Source: Deltaproteobacteria bacterium RBG_13_61_14
GTDB taxonomy: Bacteria; RBG-13-61-14
Length of the DNA: 13,568 nt
Assembly: GCA_001797815.1 (NCBI GenBank)
Contig: MGQK01000023.1
Location: 5,712-19,279 of the forward strand
Direction of reading: 5' to 3'
A program made the translations under genes and the position numbers. The notes beneath the pieces were generated by a model. The model ran no database searches and was not told the DNA's origin. It saw nothing but the letters and a program-made list of their open reading frames with translations. This document shows, one piece after another, positions 1,255-13,469 of the stretch (positions are counted from its first letter, which is position 1; each line of letters starts with the position of its first letter).

Positions 1255-1266
1255 GAAAAGAAATTA

Positions 1267-1289
1267 TCCACGAAGGACTCGAAGGTCAC
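1267..1289 (+). repeat. left inverted repeat flanking the GxxExxY gene
   Basis: These 23 bases match the reverse complement of 1762-1784 at 21 of 23 positions (mismatches at 1279 and 1286). Both copies are bordered on the outside by an ATTA-type A/T-rich tract. The repeat is built from 9-bp units of CACGAAGGA type. It lies 13 nt after the phosphatase stop codon and 24 nt before the GxxExxY ATG. Confidence 0.85.
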
Positions 1290-1304
1290 GAAGAACTCGG
1301 AGGT
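1269..1304 (+). repeat. four tandem 9-bp units (CACGAAGGA type)
   Basis: The units are CACGAAGGA, CTCGAAGGT, CACGAAGAA and CTCGGAGGT, so bases 1-5 and 7-8 of the unit are strongly conserved. The period is a multiple of three and in frame with the GxxExxY gene, where the units would read HEG-LEG-HEE-LGG. No start codon precedes the repeat closely, so it is more likely a DNA or leader element than coding sequence. Confidence 0.7.
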
Positions 1305-1313
1305 AAGGAGCGG

Positions 1314-1673
1314 ATGACCGAATTGATCTTAAAAGACGAAGCTTATGCTGTTGTGGGTGCAGCCATCGAAGTTCACCGGGTATTGGGTCCGGGCTTTTTG
1401 GAAGGCGTTTACCAGGAAGCATTGGAAATAGAATTGCGCGAACGTAGCATCCCGTATTCGATCCAGCCGAAACTAACCATCTCCTATAAAGGGAACCAAT
1501 TGAAAAAGGAATACATGCCGGACTTCGTTTGCTTCGACCAGATAGTGGTCGAGTTGAAGGCTCTCGATCGGCTCTCCGGCCAGGAAGAGGCGCAGGTTTT
1601 AAATTATCTCAAGGCGAGCGGGATGCGAGTCGGACTTCTTTTCAACTTCGGCAGTTCGGGCCGGCTTGAATGA
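1314..1673 (+). CDS. GxxExxY protein (PD-(D/E)XK-like), probably lacking its last few residues
   Basis: This 119-residue protein carries the diagnostic GFLEGVY (GxxExxY) motif at about residues 30-36. A nuclease-like core follows: PDF at about residue 68 and VELKAL at about 77-82 supply the D...ExK pattern of the PD-(D/E)XK superfamily. GxxExxY proteins (PF13366) are common in environmental bacteria and their function is unknown. The ATG at 1314 has GGAGG at 1299-1303 and AAGGAG at 1305-1310 upstream. The frame stops at TGA 1671-1673 after GRLE. Beyond it the same frame reads KRLVK and then TAA at 1689, matching the usual family ending in which an aromatic residue follows LE. The TGA is thus probably a nonsense change of a Trp TGG. 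GC is clearly below the neighbours (28/60 in two sampled lines, against 43/60 at 2221-2280), and the gene lies between inverted repeats; both suggest horizontal acquisition. Confidence 0.85.
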   Translation: MTELILKDEAYAVVGAAIEVHRVLGPGFLEGVYQEALEIELRERSIPYSIQPKLTISYKGNQLKKEYMPDFVCFDQIVVELKALDRLSGQEEAQVLNYLKASGMRVGLLFNFGSSGRLE

Positions 1674-1761
1674 AAGCGACTGGTCAAATAAAAAAATCCA
1701 CCAGCCCCCCTCGCTTCTTGATCCTTCAAGGCTCTTTCGAAATCTCATCTTCTTAAGCTTG

Positions 1762-1784
1762 GTGCCCTTCGTGTCCTTCGTGGA
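1762..1784 (-). repeat. right inverted repeat flanking the GxxExxY gene
   Basis: This is the inverted partner of 1267-1289 (21/23 identical). Read on the minus strand it has two 9-bp units, CACGAAGGA and CACGAAGGG, followed by a partial third. The outer flank again is an ATTAAT-type A/T tract, so similarity continues weakly beyond the 23-bp core. The stretch from 1674 to 1861 otherwise holds no gene. Confidence 0.85.
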
Positions 1785-1824
1785 TTAATCATTCTTGTAT
1801 TTTCTTCCTTCCTTTCCTGACCGC

Positions 1825-3309: not shown

Positions 3310-5562
3310 GTGCCCACTTCTTCCAAAACTGTCGCAGCGGCGATTGATTCGCTCGGGCCCCTGGGTGGTCCGGCCGCGGAACTCGAGAGCCTGGTCCGCG
3401 GCGACCATTCGAACCCGCATGCGATCCTCGGCGGCCACCCGGGCGAGGCGGAAGGCCGCCGCGGGGTCACCATCCGCGCTTTTCACCCGGGGGCGACCAG
3501 TGCGGAACTGATCCTCTCCGACGGCGCCCGGATTCCCTTGCGCTCGATTCACCCGGCCGGCGTGTTCGCCGCTTTTGTCGCCGGCCGGACCTGGCCGTTC
3601 TCCTATCGGGTGCGTTTCCGCTCGGCCGACGGCGAGAGCCGGGAGCGGGAAGATCCTTACCGTTTCCTGCCCACTCTCGGCGAGCTTGACCTTTACCTCA
3701 TCGGCGAGGGCACCCATTACCGGCTGTGGGAGAGCCTGGGCGCGCACCCGCGGGTGGTGGACGGCGTCTCGGGCGTCAGCTTTGCCGTGTGGGCGCCCAA
3801 CGCGGTGCGGGTGAGCGTGATCGGAGAATTCAACCATTGGGACGGCCTGACCCTGCCCATGCGCAGCATGGGCGCCTCGGGGATCTGGGAGTTGTTCGTG
3901 CCCGGGCTGGAGCCCGGCACGCTTTACAAATACGAGGTCAAGACCAAGGCCGGAGACCTCCGGGTCAAGACCGATCCCTTGGCCTTTGCCATGGAGCTCC
4001 GACCGCAGACCGCGGGAATCATCCATGAGCTCGGCCGCTACCGGTGGGGCGACGCCAAGTGGATCAAGGCCCGGGCCAAACGCAACCTGCGTGAATCGCC
4101 GATGGCCGTTTACGAGGTGCACCTGGGCTCGTTCATGCGCAATCCGGGAGAAGGCCGGCGCTGGCTGACCTACCGGGAGGCGGCGCCGAAGCTGGTGGCC
4201 CATGCCAAAAAATATGGTTTTACCCACCTCGAGTTCATGCCGCTGGCCGAGCACCCGCTCGATGAGTCCTGGGGCTACCAGGTGACCGGCTACTACGCCC
4301 CCACCCACCGCTACGGGTCGCCCGATGACCTCAAATACCTGGTGGATCTCTGCCACCGGAACGGCCTGGGCGTGCTCATGGACTGGGTGCCGGCTCACTT
4401 TCCCAAGGACGATTACAGCCTGCGCTGGTTCGACGGCACCCCTCTCTACGAGCACGCCGACCCCCGCCTGGCCGAGCACCCGGACTGGGGCACCCTGATC
4501 TTCAACTACGGCCGCACCGAAGTGAAAAATTTCCTGCTCGCCAACGCCCTTTTCTGGCTGGACGAATATCACCTGGACGGGCTGCGGGTGGACGCGGTGG
4601 CCTCCATGCTTTACCTGGACTACAGCCGCCAGGAGGGCGAGTGGGTCCCCAACCGCTTCGGCGGCCGGGAGAACCTGGAAGCCGTGGACTTCCTCCGCCA
4701 GCTCAACGAGCAGATTTACAGCCGCTACCCCGGCGCTTTCACCGTGGCCGAAGAATCCACGGCCTGGCCCGCGGTGAGCCAGCCCACTTACCTGTGCGGC
4801 CTCGGCTTCGGCTTCAAGTGGAACATGGGCTGGATGCACGACTCGCTGCTCTACTTCAGCAAAGAGCCGGTCCACCGCAAATTCCACCACAACGACCTCA
4901 CCTTCTCCATGCTCTACGCCTACACCGAAAACTTCATCCTGCCCCTCAGCCACGATGAGGTGGTGCACGGCAAGGGCTCGCTCCTGGGCAAGATGCCGGG
5001 CGACGAATGGCAGAAGTTCGCCAACCTCCGCCTGCTCTACGCTTACCTTTTCACCCACCCGGGCAAGAAGCTCTTGTTCATGGGCAGCGAGCTGGCCCCG
5101 GACCTGGAATGGAACCCCGAGCACAGCCTGCCCTGGCACCTGGCCGAAGAGCCGATGCGCCAGGGCCTGCTCCGGTTCCTCGCCGACCTCGGCCGGCTCT
5201 ATCACCAGCAGGCCCCGCTCTGGAAATGGGACCACCGGCCCGAGGGCTTCCGCTGGATTGACTGCCAGGACGCGGACCAGAGCGTGGTCGCTTACCTGCG
5301 CCTGGCCGAAGACAACCACCTGGTGGTGATCCTCAATCTCACCCCGGTGCCCCGCTACGGCTACCGCATCGGCGTGCCCCGCGCCGGCACCTACCGCGAG
5401 CTTTTGAACACGGACTCCTACCACTACGGCGGCTCCAACCTTGGCAATGCCGGCCAGATTCAGACCGAGCCGGTTCCCTGGCATCTGTATCCCCAGTCGT
5501 TCTCTCTGACCCTGCCCCCGCTGGCCGCGCTGATCCTGGAGCCGGAAACTGCGGAAAAATGA
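3310..5562 (+). CDS. glgB: 1,4-alpha-glucan (glycogen) branching enzyme
   Basis: GlgB cuts alpha-1,4 glucan chains and reattaches them as alpha-1,6 branches during glycogen synthesis. At 750 residues it has the length of the long GH13 GlgB type. Order of parts: an N-terminal beta domain (HAILGGHP near residue 37); the EDPYRFLP linker and ELDLYLIGEGTHYRLWESLG signature; a CBM48 module (FAVWAPNAVRVSVIGEFNHW, about 157 onward); and the GH13 barrel beginning with VYEVHLGSF. Catalytic residues are intact: nucleophile Asp428 in GLRVDAVASMLYLDYSR, acid/base Glu481 in VAEEST, and transition-state Asp549 in LSHDEVVHGK. An all-beta C-terminal domain closes the protein. The start is GTG with AGGAG 7 nt upstream, 15 nt after the ACT gene. 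No glgC or glgA is present here. It is probably the last gene of the galU-ACT-glgB operon. Confidence 0.96.
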   Translation: MPTSSKTVAAAIDSLGPLGGPAAELESLVRGDHSNPHAILGGHPGEAEGRRGVTIRAFHPGATSAELILSDGARIPLRSIHPAGVFAAFVAGRTWPFSYRVRFRSADGESREREDPYRFLPTLGELDLYLIGEGTHYRLWESLGAHPRVVDGVSGVSFAVWAPNAVRVSVIGEFNHWDGLTLPMRSMGASGIWELFVPGLEPGTLYKYEVKTKAGDLRVKTDPLAFAMELRPQTAGIIHELGRYRWGDAKWIKARAKRNLRESPMAVYEVHLGSFMRNPGEGRRWLTYREAAPKLVAHAKKYGFTHLEFMPLAEHPLDESWGYQVTGYYAPTHRYGSPDDLKYLVDLCHRNGLGVLMDWVPAHFPKDDYSLRWFDGTPLYEHADPRLAEHPDWGTLIFNYGRTEVKNFLLANALFWLDEYHLDGLRVDAVASMLYLDYSRQEGEWVPNRFGGRENLEAVDFLRQLNEQIYSRYPGAFTVAEESTAWPAVSQPTYLCGLGFGFKWNMGWMHDSLLYFSKEPVHRKFHHNDLTFSMLYAYTENFILPLSHDEVVHGKGSLLGKMPGDEWQKFANLRLLYAYLFTHPGKKLLFMGSELAPDLEWNPEHSLPWHLAEEPMRQGLLRFLADLGRLYHQQAPLWKWDHRPEGFRWIDCQDADQSVVAYLRLAEDNHLVVILNLTPVPRYGYRIGVPRAGTYRELLNTDSYHYGGSNLGNAGQIQTEPVPWHLYPQSFSLTLPPLAALILEPETAEK

Positions 5563-9914: not shown

Positions 9915-9943
9915 ATTATACTATTTCGGCGGATTTTCGCCAG
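9915..9943 (-). promoter_or_regulatory. candidate promoter between otsA and the ABC genes
   Basis: A perfect TATAAT reads on the minus strand from 9920 to 9915, directly after the otsA stop codon. The hexamer 17 bp upstream (CTGGCG, 9943-9938) is a poor -35 element with three of six matches. An internal promoter for the ABC genes is plausible but unproven. Confidence 0.4.
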
Positions 9944-11411
9944 CATGGATGGGAGGATGATACTCTTCCAGGGTTGGGAAATCCCTCAATTTTATCGCAA
10001 AAGCGGCTTGAAGAAACGAATCCACCCAATCGAAGACGTTGAAGGTGCGGATGGATTCACGGAGCCTCCGCATCCGGAATTTTCTTTCTCCCTCTTCCAT
10101 CTGAAAGGCGCGATGGATCGCGTCCGCTACCGCCTCGATGTGATAGGGATTGACCAGGAGCGCGTTCCGATGCAACTGGGCCGCGGCCCCGGCAAATTCG
10201 GATAAAATCAACACCCCATTTTCCTCCAAGGTGCAGGCACAGTATTCCTTGGCCACCAGATTCATCCCATCCTTGAGCGGAGTGACCAGGGCGATTTCCG
10301 AAGTTCGATAATAGGCGATCAGTTCATCCCACTCCAGCCTCCGGTAGAGATAATGGATCGGGACCCAACCGGGCCGAGTGAAACGGCCGTTGATCTCCCC
10401 CACCATCCGCTCGATCTGGCTCTTGAGCGTTTGATACATGGGAACCTCTTCCCGGCTGGGCACCACGAACTGCACCAAGGTCACTTTCCCGTGCAGGTCG
10501 GGATAGCGGCTCAGGGCATTGCGAAACGCTTCCAAGCGTTCCGGAATCCCCTTGGTGTAGTCCAGCCGATCCAGCCCCAGAATAATCTGCCGGTTGGGCA
10601 GGGCCTCATGAATCAGCCAGGCTTGGTCGGCGACCTCTTGCGAGTCCGCCCGTTCCGCAAAGCCGTGAAAGTCAATTCCGATCGGGAAAGCTCCGATTCG
10701 CACCTGGCGTTCGCCCCAGGGGATCGAAAGCACCGCTCCCCGGCCACGGGTTTTGATCTCCGGGTGCAGATATTGGATGCATTCGATAAAATTGCGCCGG
10801 TCGCGCATGGTTTGAAAACCGATCAAGTCGTAATCGAGCAGCGCCTGCAGAACCTGAACCCGCCAGGGCAGTTTGAGGAAGATGTCCACCGACGGAAAGG
10901 GGATGTGAAGGAAGAAGCCGGTCTTCAGACCCGGAACCCTCTGCCGCAAGGTCCGGCCCGCCAGCATCAGGTGGTAATCGTGCACCCAGATATAATCGGT
11001 GGGCCGGCTTTCCCGGGCCACTACCTCCGCAAACTTGCGATTCACTTCCACATAGGCCTGCCAGTATTCCGGCGCAAAGTTACAGCGGGTCTGCAAATCG
11101 TGAAACAGGGGCCAGATGATCTCATTGGCAAAGCCATAATAAAAACCTTTGACATCTTCCGCGGTCAACCCGACCGGGATCAGTTTGTAGCCCAGATCTT
11201 CCGTGGCCGGCTCCAGCTTCTCGAACTCCACCGCTTCGCTGGTGCCCAGCCAGCCGATCCACAGCCCGCCCCGGTTCTTCAAGACCGGCACCAGGGCGGT
11301 GACCAGGCCCCCGGAACCCGGATGGACTTGCCACTCGCCCGATTCCTGCCACAAGGTGATCGGCAGCCGGTTCGAGACCACCACCAAACGAGTTTCGGGT
11401 CGCGGCTCCAT
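9921..11411 (-). CDS. otsA: alpha,alpha-trehalose-phosphate synthase (UDP-forming)
   Basis: OtsA (GT20) joins UDP-glucose and glucose-6-phosphate to trehalose-6-phosphate. At 496 residues it is slightly longer than the ~474 of E. coli. Motifs in order: VVVSNRLP at 10-17 (donor loop arginine), GSGGLVTAL near 32-40, YYGFANEIIWPLFHD, YIWVHDYHLM with His144/Asp145, LDRLDYTKG with Arg282/Lys287 (equivalent to the E. coli phosphate-binding Arg262/Lys267), and the C-terminal TPLKDGMNLVAKEYCA and LSEFAGAAAQL. All key residues are present. GGGAGGAA on the minus strand sits about 6 nt before the ATG. The gene follows otsB by 28 nt in the same direction. GalU on the opposite strand provides its donor. 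Such pathways respond to osmotic, desiccation or heat stress, though no regulatory site for this is visible. Confidence 0.96.
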   Translation of the reverse strand: MEPRPETRLVVVSNRLPITLWQESGEWQVHPGSGGLVTALVPVLKNRGGLWIGWLGTSEAVEFEKLEPATEDLGYKLIPVGLTAEDVKGFYYGFANEIIWPLFHDLQTRCNFAPEYWQAYVEVNRKFAEVVARESRPTDYIWVHDYHLMLAGRTLRQRVPGLKTGFFLHIPFPSVDIFLKLPWRVQVLQALLDYDLIGFQTMRDRRNFIECIQYLHPEIKTRGRGAVLSIPWGERQVRIGAFPIGIDFHGFAERADSQEVADQAWLIHEALPNRQIILGLDRLDYTKGIPERLEAFRNALSRYPDLHGKVTLVQFVVPSREEVPMYQTLKSQIERMVGEINGRFTRPGWVPIHYLYRRLEWDELIAYYRTSEIALVTPLKDGMNLVAKEYCACTLEENGVLILSEFAGAAAQLHRNALLVNPYHIEAVADAIHRAFQMEEGERKFRMRRLRESIRTFNVFDWVDSFLQAAFAIKLRDFPTLEEYHPPIHAGENPPK

Positions 11412-11439
11412 CAGGCTTCCTCCCAGCCCCGCCAGCCGG

Positions 11440-12234
11440 CTAAACCCTCCCGGCGCAGCCCCGGGCCCACTGGTTCAACCATTCCACTAGCTCCCCGGGA
11501 GGCCTCAGCCACAACTCCGCCGCGGTTTCCCGCCATTGCTCTCGCACCAGAACGCTCAAGCCTCTTCCCCTTATCGCACCAAAGGCGTCCTCGTCGGTGA
11601 GGTCATCGCCCAAGTAGGCCGCCGCCGCTTCCGGTCCCGCCTCGGCCAGAATGGTCTCGACCGCATCGCCCTTGTTCCGGCCCGGCGCCCGGAGCTCGAG
11701 CCCGCCGTCGAAGTCATGCAACTCCAGGCCCGAGGCCGGACCGCGGACGGCCCAGGCCTCTCGAAATTGGCGGGAAAGCGCCTCCTGCTCCGCCGGGGCC
11801 AAACCCCGCCAGTGCAGGGCGATGCTGCCCGGCTTGGCCTCGCACCGCTCCCCCCAGCCTTGCGCCTCCGCCCAGTGGTCCGCTTCCGCCAGCGCCTGGA
11901 CCGACCGCTCATCCATCGGGGCTATCTCATAGCGGCCGTCCGGAAACAAACGCTCCAGGCCGTGACAACCCCAGATCTCCGGCAACTCGCGCAGTCCGAG
12001 CAGGGGGATCAAGTCCTTGGTCCAGCGGCCGCTGACCAGCACCAGCCGGCTGGTGCGGCCGGCCAGGATCCTATCCAGAGCTTCGCGCACTCCCGGATAG
12101 GGAAAGGCGTGGTCGCGCTCCACCCGGAACGGCGCCAGGGTGCCGTCATAGTCGAGCATGAGCACGCGCTGGGGAGCGCCGGCCAGCCGCTCCCAGAACC
12201 GGGCCAGCTCCGGAGAATTAAGCTCAGGTTTCAC
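11440..12234 (-). CDS. otsB: trehalose-6-phosphate phosphatase
   Basis: OtsB dephosphorylates trehalose-6-phosphate to trehalose. The 264-residue HAD-family protein has the nucleophile motif LDYDGTLAPF (Asp28, Asp30), the substrate-recognition GCHGLERLFPDG, and the metal-binding LGDDLTDEDAF (Asp210, Asp211). The open frame extends much further upstream, to 12501, but that part lies inside the neighbouring gene and has a composition unlike protein. The real start is GTG 12234, which overlaps the stop of the treT-like gene as GTGA and has GAGGTGGA before it. The result has the usual OtsB length. The order otsB then otsA, behind a TreT-like gene, is a compact trehalose operon. Confidence 0.94.
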   Translation of the reverse strand: MKPELNSPELARFWERLAGAPQRVLMLDYDGTLAPFRVERDHAFPYPGVREALDRILAGRTSRLVLVSGRWTKDLIPLLGLRELPEIWGCHGLERLFPDGRYEIAPMDERSVQALAEADHWAEAQGWGERCEAKPGSIALHWRGLAPAEQEALSRQFREAWAVRGPASGLELHDFDGGLELRAPGRNKGDAVETILAEAGPEAAAAYLGDDLTDEDAFGAIRGRGLSVLVREQWRETAAELWLRPPGELVEWLNQWARGCAGRV

Positions 12235-13469
12235 TCCACCTCGATCCGCTCTTCTTGGCCGCTGAGCAGGCTGATCATCATCACCAGGTATTCCCGCAGG
12301 TGCCGGGTAATCAGGAAATTCTCGCGCACGAACCGGCGGGCCCGCTGCCCCATGTCGAGCAAGTGGTCGCGGTGATGGAGCAGGTAGCGGATCCGGAGCG
12401 CGGCGCCTTCCGGCGTGCGCACCAGGAAGCCGGTCTGGTGGTTGATCACCTGCAGCCGGATGCCCCCGGTGTCCCCTCCGATCACCGGCTTGGCCTTCCA
12501 CATGGCCTCGGCCACGGTCAGGCCGAACCCCTCCTTGATGGATTTCTGGAGCACGATGTCCGCGGCCCGCTGCAAGGCGTTGATGGTGCGGTGGGCGTCG
12601 GGCGGGAGAAGCAGGATATGGATGTCCGGGTCGCCGTTGCTCGCCTGCATCACTTCCTTGAGCACCGCCTCTCCCTCCGGGTCGTCGCTCGCGTTCCCCC
12701 CGGCCAGCACCAGTTGCAAGGGCGTGAGCTGGCGCGCCAGGCGGTAGGCGGAAATCACGCCCAGCGGGTCCTTGAACCGGTCGAAGCGGGAAACCTGGAG
12801 CACGATCGGCCGCTCCGGGTCCAGCTCGAAGCGCCCGACCACTGTCTGCACTTCTTCGTCCGGGAGCTCGAGGTTCTTTTCGCTGAGCGGGTCAATGCTC
12901 GGCGGGATCAGGTATTGCCGGTGCGGCAGCACCTGGGCGAACTCGGGCAGGGAAAAAACGCTGGCGTCGTAAGCCGCGACCCAGTTGCGCAGGTATTTCC
13001 AGACCGCGCGGTAAGGGTGGCTGGCGTCAATGTGGCAGCGCCAGATCCATTTGCCTTTGCGGCCGGGACAGAAATGCAAGAGCGCCGCCGGCTGGGGATC
13101 GTGGATGAAGACCAGGTCCGCGGCCTCCAGGGTCGGCCGCAGCCGCTCGGCATTAACGGCGTTGGTCTTCTCGTAAGCCTCGATCATGGATTTGGTCAGC
13201 ACCGTCGGCCGGCCTTGCAGGGCGTTATGAAACCCCTTGGTGCACTCGAAGAACTCCCGCTCGCCGTTAATCACTTCCCAACCGGCCTCGATCCCCAGCG
13301 CCTGCATCAAGGGCACCAGCTTGGTCAGGATCTCGGCCACTCCCCCGCCTTCCCGGGTGGAATTGACGTGGACGACCTTAAGCCCTTGCAAAGAGCGGGC
13401 TAACTGGCGGAGGTGTTGGACCACGTCCTGCCCGGCCACCGCGGCGTATTGCTGGAGCAGGTCTTTCAC
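12231..13469 (-). CDS. treT: TreT-like trehalose glycosyltransferring synthase (GT4)
   Basis: The 412-residue GT-B glycosyltransferase has the length and motifs of TreT. VNSTREGGGVAEIL (about 36-49) is the acceptor-side glycine loop. HDPQPAALLHF and KWIWRCHIDASHPY are characteristic of TreT. VLQVSRFDRFKDP starts the donor domain, and KEGFGLTVAEAMW gives the EX7E pair Glu313/Glu321. TreT makes trehalose in one step from ADP-, UDP- or GDP-glucose and free glucose, and in some organisms works in reverse. The GTG start overlaps the stop of the preceding gene (GTGA) and AGGAA lies upstream. Its stop overlaps the otsB start. Having it in one operon with otsB and otsA is unusual, because the routes are alternatives. 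A related activity, such as glucosylation of another acceptor, cannot be excluded. Confidence 0.85.
   Translation of the reverse strand: MKDLLQQYAAVAGQDVVQHLRQLARSLQGLKVVHVNSTREGGGVAEILTKLVPLMQALGIEAGWEVINGEREFFECTKGFHNALQGRPTVLTKSMIEAYEKTNAVNAERLRPTLEAADLVFIHDPQPAALLHFCPGRKGKWIWRCHIDASHPYRAVWKYLRNWVAAYDASVFSLPEFAQVLPHRQYLIPPSIDPLSEKNLELPDEEVQTVVGRFELDPERPIVLQVSRFDRFKDPLGVISAYRLARQLTPLQLVLAGGNASDDPEGEAVLKEVMQASNGDPDIHILLLPPDAHRTINALQRAADIVLQKSIKEGFGLTVAEAMWKAKPVIGGDTGGIRLQVINHQTGFLVRTPEGAALRIRYLLHHRDHLLDMGQRARRFVRENFLITRHLREYLVMMISLLSGQEERIEVE

Follow-up and report, generated by a model that had tools for sequence, protein, structure and literature searches.

What does a small GxxExxY gene do between two inverted repeats, and does it move with them? 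GxxExxY genes are annotated in many genomes without a function, and one of them lies in front of a galU-type gene in the 13,568-nt stretch of Deltaproteobacteria bacterium RBG_13_61_14 DNA analysed here, which we call the window. The initial annotation, made from the sequence of the window alone, had reported 23-bp inverted repeats (1267-1289 and 1762-1784, 21/23 identical) and proposed a mobile cassette of ~530 bp.

A GxxExxY gene framed by inverted arms

A repeat search of the window returned the same repeats as the core of longer inverted arms at 1266-1293 and 1758-1785, which are 28 nt long, 89% complementary and separated by 464 nt. The features of the locus are as follows.

634-1254 (strand not stated): phosphatase-like gene, neighbour before the cassette
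1241-1265, + strand: left outer flank, weakly complementary to 1786-1812 in a gapped local alignment; overlaps the 3' end of the phosphatase-like gene
1269-1303, + strand: left arm, four 9-bp units of CACGAAGGA type, by inspection CACGAAGGA, CTCGAAGGT, CACGAAGAA and CTCGGAGG in order; inverted-repeat core 1266-1293
1314-1673, + strand: GxxExxY gene (PDDEXK_3, TIGR04256), 360 bp, 119 aa
1758-1785, - strand: right arm of three CACGAAGGA-type units in the orientation opposite to that of the left arm; by inspection CACGAAGGA, CACGAAGGG and CACCAAG when read on the - strand
1786-1812, - strand: right outer flank, weakly complementary to 1241-1265 in a gapped local alignment
from about 1859: galU-type nucleotidyltransferase gene, neighbour after the cassette

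The gene inside the arms was described as a low-GC GxxExxY gene, and both parts of this description hold: GC content is 48.6% at 1251-1750, compared with 60-69% across most of the window, and over the whole domain the protein matches both PF13366 (E 2.5e-39; 134.7 bits against a curated cut-off of 22) and TIGR04256 (E 1.1e-39; 135.4 bits against a curated cut-off of 35). The similar A/T-rich outer flanks were also recovered, if weakly and with gaps (1241-1265 against 1786-1812). To score such arms, we took the 500 bp on either side of a gene and aligned the upstream stretch with the reverse complement of the downstream one. The arms and outer flanks of the window locus (L038) reached a gapped alignment score of 24.5, whereas 27 galU control loci scored at most 16 in the same test.

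Synteny comparison showed a different gene upstream of galU in two relatives (G001 and G002) from that in the window. None of four neighbouring genes is a cas gene, and PADLOC and Rfam gave no match. The GxxExxY gene ends at a TGA codon where its closest relative has Trp, so that the last ~10 residues are missing in the alignment. With this early stop and its imperfect arms, the window copy may be ageing. Further along, 9921-13469 on the - strand carries trehalose-type genes by inspection (synthase, phosphatase and glycosyltransferase), after glgB-like and leucine-rich-repeat genes, which is an ordinary neighbourhood.

The protein is predicted to adopt a Cas4-like nuclease fold

Among Pfam families, the window gene matches PF13366 only, and no HUH/Y1 (IS200/IS605-like) transposase was recognised. 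An AlphaFold model of the protein (pLDDT 95) gave Cas4 SSO0001 (4ic1) as its best fold match, with a Z-score of 8.5 and an rmsd of 3.3 over 92 residues. BamHI followed at Z 7.7, within 1 of Cas4, and then Hjc (Z 6.2) and XisH (Z 5.7); sequence identity in these matches is 10-17%. As Z-scores of 5-8 are common for the PD-(D/E)XK fold, they give the fold class and not the function. The catalytic D, ExK and QxxxY are conserved, the last being a motif of RecB/Cas4 nucleases, and the invariant alignment columns include the window residues and GxxExxY. In the model, the fold is that of a Cas4-like PD-(D/E)XK nuclease and not of a transposase, a fold common to Cas4/RecB-type nucleases, Hjc, XisH and restriction endonucleases; GxxExxY is about half the size of Cas4. 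Together with the PF13366 match, the predicted fold upholds the proposal that the only gene of the cassette is PD-(D/E)XK-like and that no transposase is encoded. A match to T7 endonuclease I was set aside as evidence, since a PDB-sequence profile search gave E 0.31-0.39 with one alignment and nothing with a larger one. A dN/dS of about 0.06 in two close pairs indicates that GxxExxY is under purifying selection.

Inverted arms recur around GxxExxY genes across phyla

Using the inverted-arm test, we compared 79 testable GxxExxY loci from about 19 phyla, archaea included, with 125 positional controls, in which the same geometry was moved by 2.5 kb in GxxExxY-bearing contigs. A score of at least 14 was reached by 62 of the 79 loci and by 1/125 controls, and a score of at least 16 by 54/79 and 0/125, respectively; about a fifth of the 79 loci have no clear inverted arms. 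Relatives' GxxExxY loci, for which galU loci served as the control, agreed with this result. A further 29 loci, mostly extra copies in ten genomes, were weaker: 20 scored at least 14, and strict CRCNRAG arms were found on both sides in nine.

The arms consist of tandem CRCNRAG units spaced 8-10 bp apart, the commonest being, in order of frequency, CACAGAG, CACGGAG, CGCAGAG, CACGAAG and CACAAAG. Their sequence differs between loci, and the two arms of one locus match each other. The arm-to-arm match within a locus was 15.75, compared with 8.43 for permuted pairs, and none of 2000 permutations was as high. Pairs of arms taken from different loci score at least 14 in 17% of cases, because all arms have a common theme. 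Complementarity also runs 10-20 bp past the units into locus-specific sequence of the outer flanks (p<=0.0025), and the outer ends of the arms tend to TT(C/A)ACC by inspection. Arm pairs around other genes are rare. By these comparisons, a GxxExxY gene with inverted repeats is a recurrent unit across phyla.

Carriage of the gene by phages or plasmids was considered and rejected: GxxExxY was found in 0/50,697 phage records and 7/72,556 plasmids, and at three loci in 2.9 million viral contigs, a count that is a lower bound as that scan used one peptide pattern.

Dispersed arms accompany the gene

The host genome (G000; 4.7 Mb in 132 contigs) has four GxxExxY genes, and 4/4 have inverted arms of common design and differing sequence. 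CACAGAG-type arms frame L036 (score 30) and L035, where the right arm lies 1.7 kb off, past a second gene; L037 has weaker CACTAAG/CACCAAG-type arms (score 14.5), and the arms of the window locus are of CACGAAG type. The window arm type (the ATCCACGAAGGACACGAAGG repeat) has 32 copies in the host genome at up to 3 mismatches, compared with 0 for the reversed pattern, and these copies are mostly without a nearby gene. In 400 kb of the host genome, adjacent arms less than 400 bp apart were convergent in 13 cases and divergent in none.

We then counted matches to the arm pattern CACRRAGNCACRRAG in 60 genomes, a set with mostly one genome per family, which limits relatedness. At least three matches were found in 10/18 genomes with the gene and in 0/42 without it (Fisher 6e-7, a test that ignores kinship), and the totals were 364 matches in gene-bearing and 8 in gene-less genomes. 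The remaining eight of the 18 gene-bearing genomes have fewer than three matches. With a single GxxExxY gene, G048 has 133 matches; its dispersed arms are mostly single and unpaired, and at least 30 of 35 sampled arms have the T-spacer variant found in the gene's own arms. Across the genomes compared, dispersed arms occur mainly where a GxxExxY gene is carried. Repeats occurring at random without the gene had been named in the initial annotation as evidence against a cassette. Repeats away from the gene do exist, but they are not random, as the dispersed copies depend on the gene.

Genes for Y1/RAYT transposases, another candidate owner of the repeats, are present in 25/26 genomes tested, repeat-bearing or not. 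At 30 Y1/RAYT loci, no periodic arm was found within 600 bp, and many of these loci have inverted repeats of their own. RAYT was therefore rejected as the owner of the repeats: Y1 genes never carry arms, whether or not the genome has repeats, which places the repeats with GxxExxY.

The cassette is replaced at a conserved locus in Thioalkalivibrio

Locus L126 was looked for in 30 Thioalkalivibrio species. Between the same two neighbour genes, a cassette is present in seven species and a gap of 15-94 bp in eight, so that the empty sites sought in orthologous loci were found here. The GxxExxY gene occurs in 9/30 species, as a single copy in each. Three types of cassette occupy the site: one with CACAGAG arms (G060 and G080), one with CACGAAG arms (G076, G078 and the 5'-truncated G098) and one with ACAGGAAG arms (G075 and G084). 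In a tree of 110 proteins, the six readable genes of this site group as a single clade (support 99/90). In G084, G098 and G080, the left neighbour gene is 93-98% identical and the right one 90-95%, and the three cluster together at both sides, yet they carry three different cassettes despite these similar flanks. As the cassette types disagree with the flanks, the cassette has been replaced in place. A ~400-bp recombination tract is suggested by the right flank of G084, and homologous recombination alone could account for the exchange. Copies also decay: the GxxExxY motif of G080 lacks its Tyr, and G098 is truncated.

The seven cassette species have 49-258 matches to CACRRAGNCACRRAG, compared with 1-9 in the eight empty-site species. 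There are exceptions: two gene-bearing species, G071 and G072, have 0 matches, and G086 has 75 matches with no gene detected, in sampled contigs of less than 10 kb from which the gene may be unassembled. The best reading of this pattern is that the gene mostly stays put or is swapped in place, and that the repeats disperse. The proposed ~530-bp mobile cassette is thus upheld in part: the gene and repeats recur as a unit across phyla, orthologous sites can be empty, and cassettes are replaced at a conserved locus. Free hopping of the gene-bearing unit found no support, the Thioalkalivibrio gene being confined to a single locus and one copy per genome while the repeats disperse. With both gene-bearing and empty species, the genus is a natural experiment.

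Gene-less arm pairs are nested and differ between species

The dispersed gene-less copies in Thioalkalivibrio are 180-280 bp long and adjoin stop codons, often between convergent genes. They are nested, with outer CACGAAG arms, inner CACAGAG or ACAGGAAG arms and then a loop. In 400 kb of one Thioalkalivibrio genome, neighbouring arms less than 400 bp apart were convergent in 5 cases and divergent in 0, which brings the ratio over this and the host genome (400 kb each) to 18:0. At four orthologous sites (241, 250, 253 and 257), pairs are present in some species and absent from others, and the suggestion of a non-autonomous element fits these gene-less pairs, which behave in this way. Target duplications, proposed as a further mark of mobility, were not evident at any of the four sites, where intergenic drift blurs the junctions. 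At site 257, the inner arms differ by species inside the same outer arms, with only a relic in G098. G060 and G076 have the loop in opposite orientations at sites 241 and 253 (G060 C12:49937-50140, L241, against G076 C7, L375; and G060 C14, L353, against G076 C8, L253). The symmetric nesting and loop inversion suggest insertion or rejoining at paired arms; ordinary recombination between arms could also explain the inversion.

Proposed mechanism and alternative explanations

We consider it fairly probable, judging from sequence comparison, that the window holds one copy of a REP/RAYT-like system, a Cas4-like PD-(D/E)XK nuclease gene with inverted CRCNRAG arms, whose repeats would be moved by the nuclease. 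The most economical reading is that GxxExxY acts on the repeats. The nuclease would recognise arms of its own class, probably once they have paired into a hairpin or cruciform, and would cut near the base of this structure. After such a cut, a segment bounded by arms could be copied or moved and then rejoined, in many cases inside a different inverted repeat where convergent genes end; the GxxExxY gene itself would move rarely. Such cutting and rejoining at arm pairs would produce nested arms, loop inversion between species and insertions with no evident target duplications. A broader proposal is more tentative, and we would place it a little short of an even chance: a class of chromosomal elements found in both Bacteria and Archaea and built on a stand-alone Cas4-like nuclease of ~120 aa that recognises and disperses paired arms, which insert preferentially in inverted repeats and nest like Russian dolls, as an independent non-HUH counterpart of REP/RAYT.

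Alternatively, the repeats could be a MITE or REP class moved by another enzyme, e.g. a Y1 or DDE transposase, with GxxExxY as a homing-like gene in the loop that cuts empty relatives at the same site, after which homologous recombination replaces the cassette. Species whose flanks are closely similar have indeed exchanged cassettes in place at a single locus, the protein has a nuclease fold without transposase features, and the Y1 transposases of 25/26 genomes could act in trans. However, the dispersed arms track the GxxExxY gene and, in G048, have the variant of the gene's own arms, while Y1 genes are equally present in repeat-less species and never found with arms; we regard this explanation as unlikely. 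Less likely still is that GxxExxY serves the host by processing inverted-repeat hairpins or cruciforms, so that the gene is kept in repeat-rich genomes and has arms of its own for regulation or by accident. The strong purifying selection, the persistence of the gene at one locus across species and the Holliday-junction resolvases among the fold matches are consistent with such a role, which leaves unexplained the framing of the gene by arms as well as the empty sites and cassette replacement at its locus, and several gene-bearing genomes have few repeats.

The arms could also be immobile and serve convergent gene ends only in recombination, transcription termination or RNA pairing. Dispersed pairs do adjoin stop codons, often between convergent genes, and each arm of L179 holds a terminator-like hairpin. 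This explanation is already disfavoured by the empty sites, as whole pairs of 180-280 bp are present or absent at orthologous sites; copy number moreover depends on the gene, and the same arms are found round the gene and dispersed, which makes it very improbable. Movement of the repeats by the nuclease is the reading that we prefer.

Relation to known repeat systems

RAYTs belong to the HUH/Y1 single-strand transposases, and a REP is a palindrome of 20-40 bp that bears a GTAG/GTGG tag (PMC3686654). In the REP/RAYT 'orthoswitch', monophyletic genes at a shared locus have differing repeat classes in related strains (PMC3686654). The GxxExxY loci resemble REP/REPIN and RAYT (PMC3686654) in that a DNA-cutting enzyme, here a predicted nuclease, is encoded between two inverted copies of a short repeat from intergenic regions; in both, the abundance of the repeat depends on whether the cognate gene is present (here with the exceptions G086, G071 and G072), close inverted doublets occur, and related genes at one site have different repeat classes. 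They differ in the enzyme, which is PD-(D/E)XK and not HUH/Y1, and in the arms, which are tandem 7-nt units spaced 8-10 bp apart and have no GTAG/GTGG tag. As the defining enzyme and tag are both absent, GxxExxY is not a RAYT system, though it is RAYT-like in its workings. TIRYTs and TIRtrons (PMC3733652) likewise carry their enzyme gene between inverted repeats, and some of these repeats make up dispersed families, but their enzyme is a Y1 transposase and their terminal repeats are of other sequence. Like the MITEs of bacterial insertion sequences, the gene-less pairs are short non-autonomous inverted-repeat elements between genes. Unlike in MITEs, no transposase partner was recognised and no target-site duplication was evident at the four sites with drifted junctions, the loops vary in sequence, the pairs nest symmetrically, and the parent-like unit holds a PD-(D/E)XK gene and no transposase.

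In the open-access literature searched, we found no account of a link between GxxExxY and repeats, and no explanation of CACAGAG/CACGAAG-type intergenic repeats. Linking the two gives each a testable role, and the flanks of each gene predict the repeat that its nuclease recognises. If the nuclease drives the repeats, this would be a second, transposase-free route to REP-like repeats; if the broader proposal above is true, a large part of the periodic repeats between genes that lack an explanation would be accounted for.

Variants of the arm design

Several loci depart from the simple design. A nearby cassette at L133:686-1217 has CGCAGAG arms around a different gene of 154 aa, whose product has a PD...VEAKGE motif and is PD-(D/E)XK-like by eye, with no Pfam match. 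L035 (G000 C75:32044-33806) is a two-gene cassette, in which GxxExxY and a 370-aa protein without a Pfam match lie between CACAGAG arms 1.7 kb apart. At L179 (~4001-4339), both arms of the gene are full inverted pairs in themselves, each round a terminator-like hairpin (GGGTGGGCC...GGCCCACCC). Arm units are tandemly expanded at G000 C125:8005-8346 and at L247; one right arm, for example, has about nine CTCCGTGTA units. Further periodic intergenic repeats, e.g. CCACAGATTACGCAGATT and AACCGCAGATTAACGCGGATGAACGC, adjoin arms in the host genome (L005, L008, L009, L014 and L015), and the GxxExxY genes of L041, L044 and L058 have arms of CCACAGATTACGCAGATT/AACCGCAGATTAACGCGGATGAACGC-like types.
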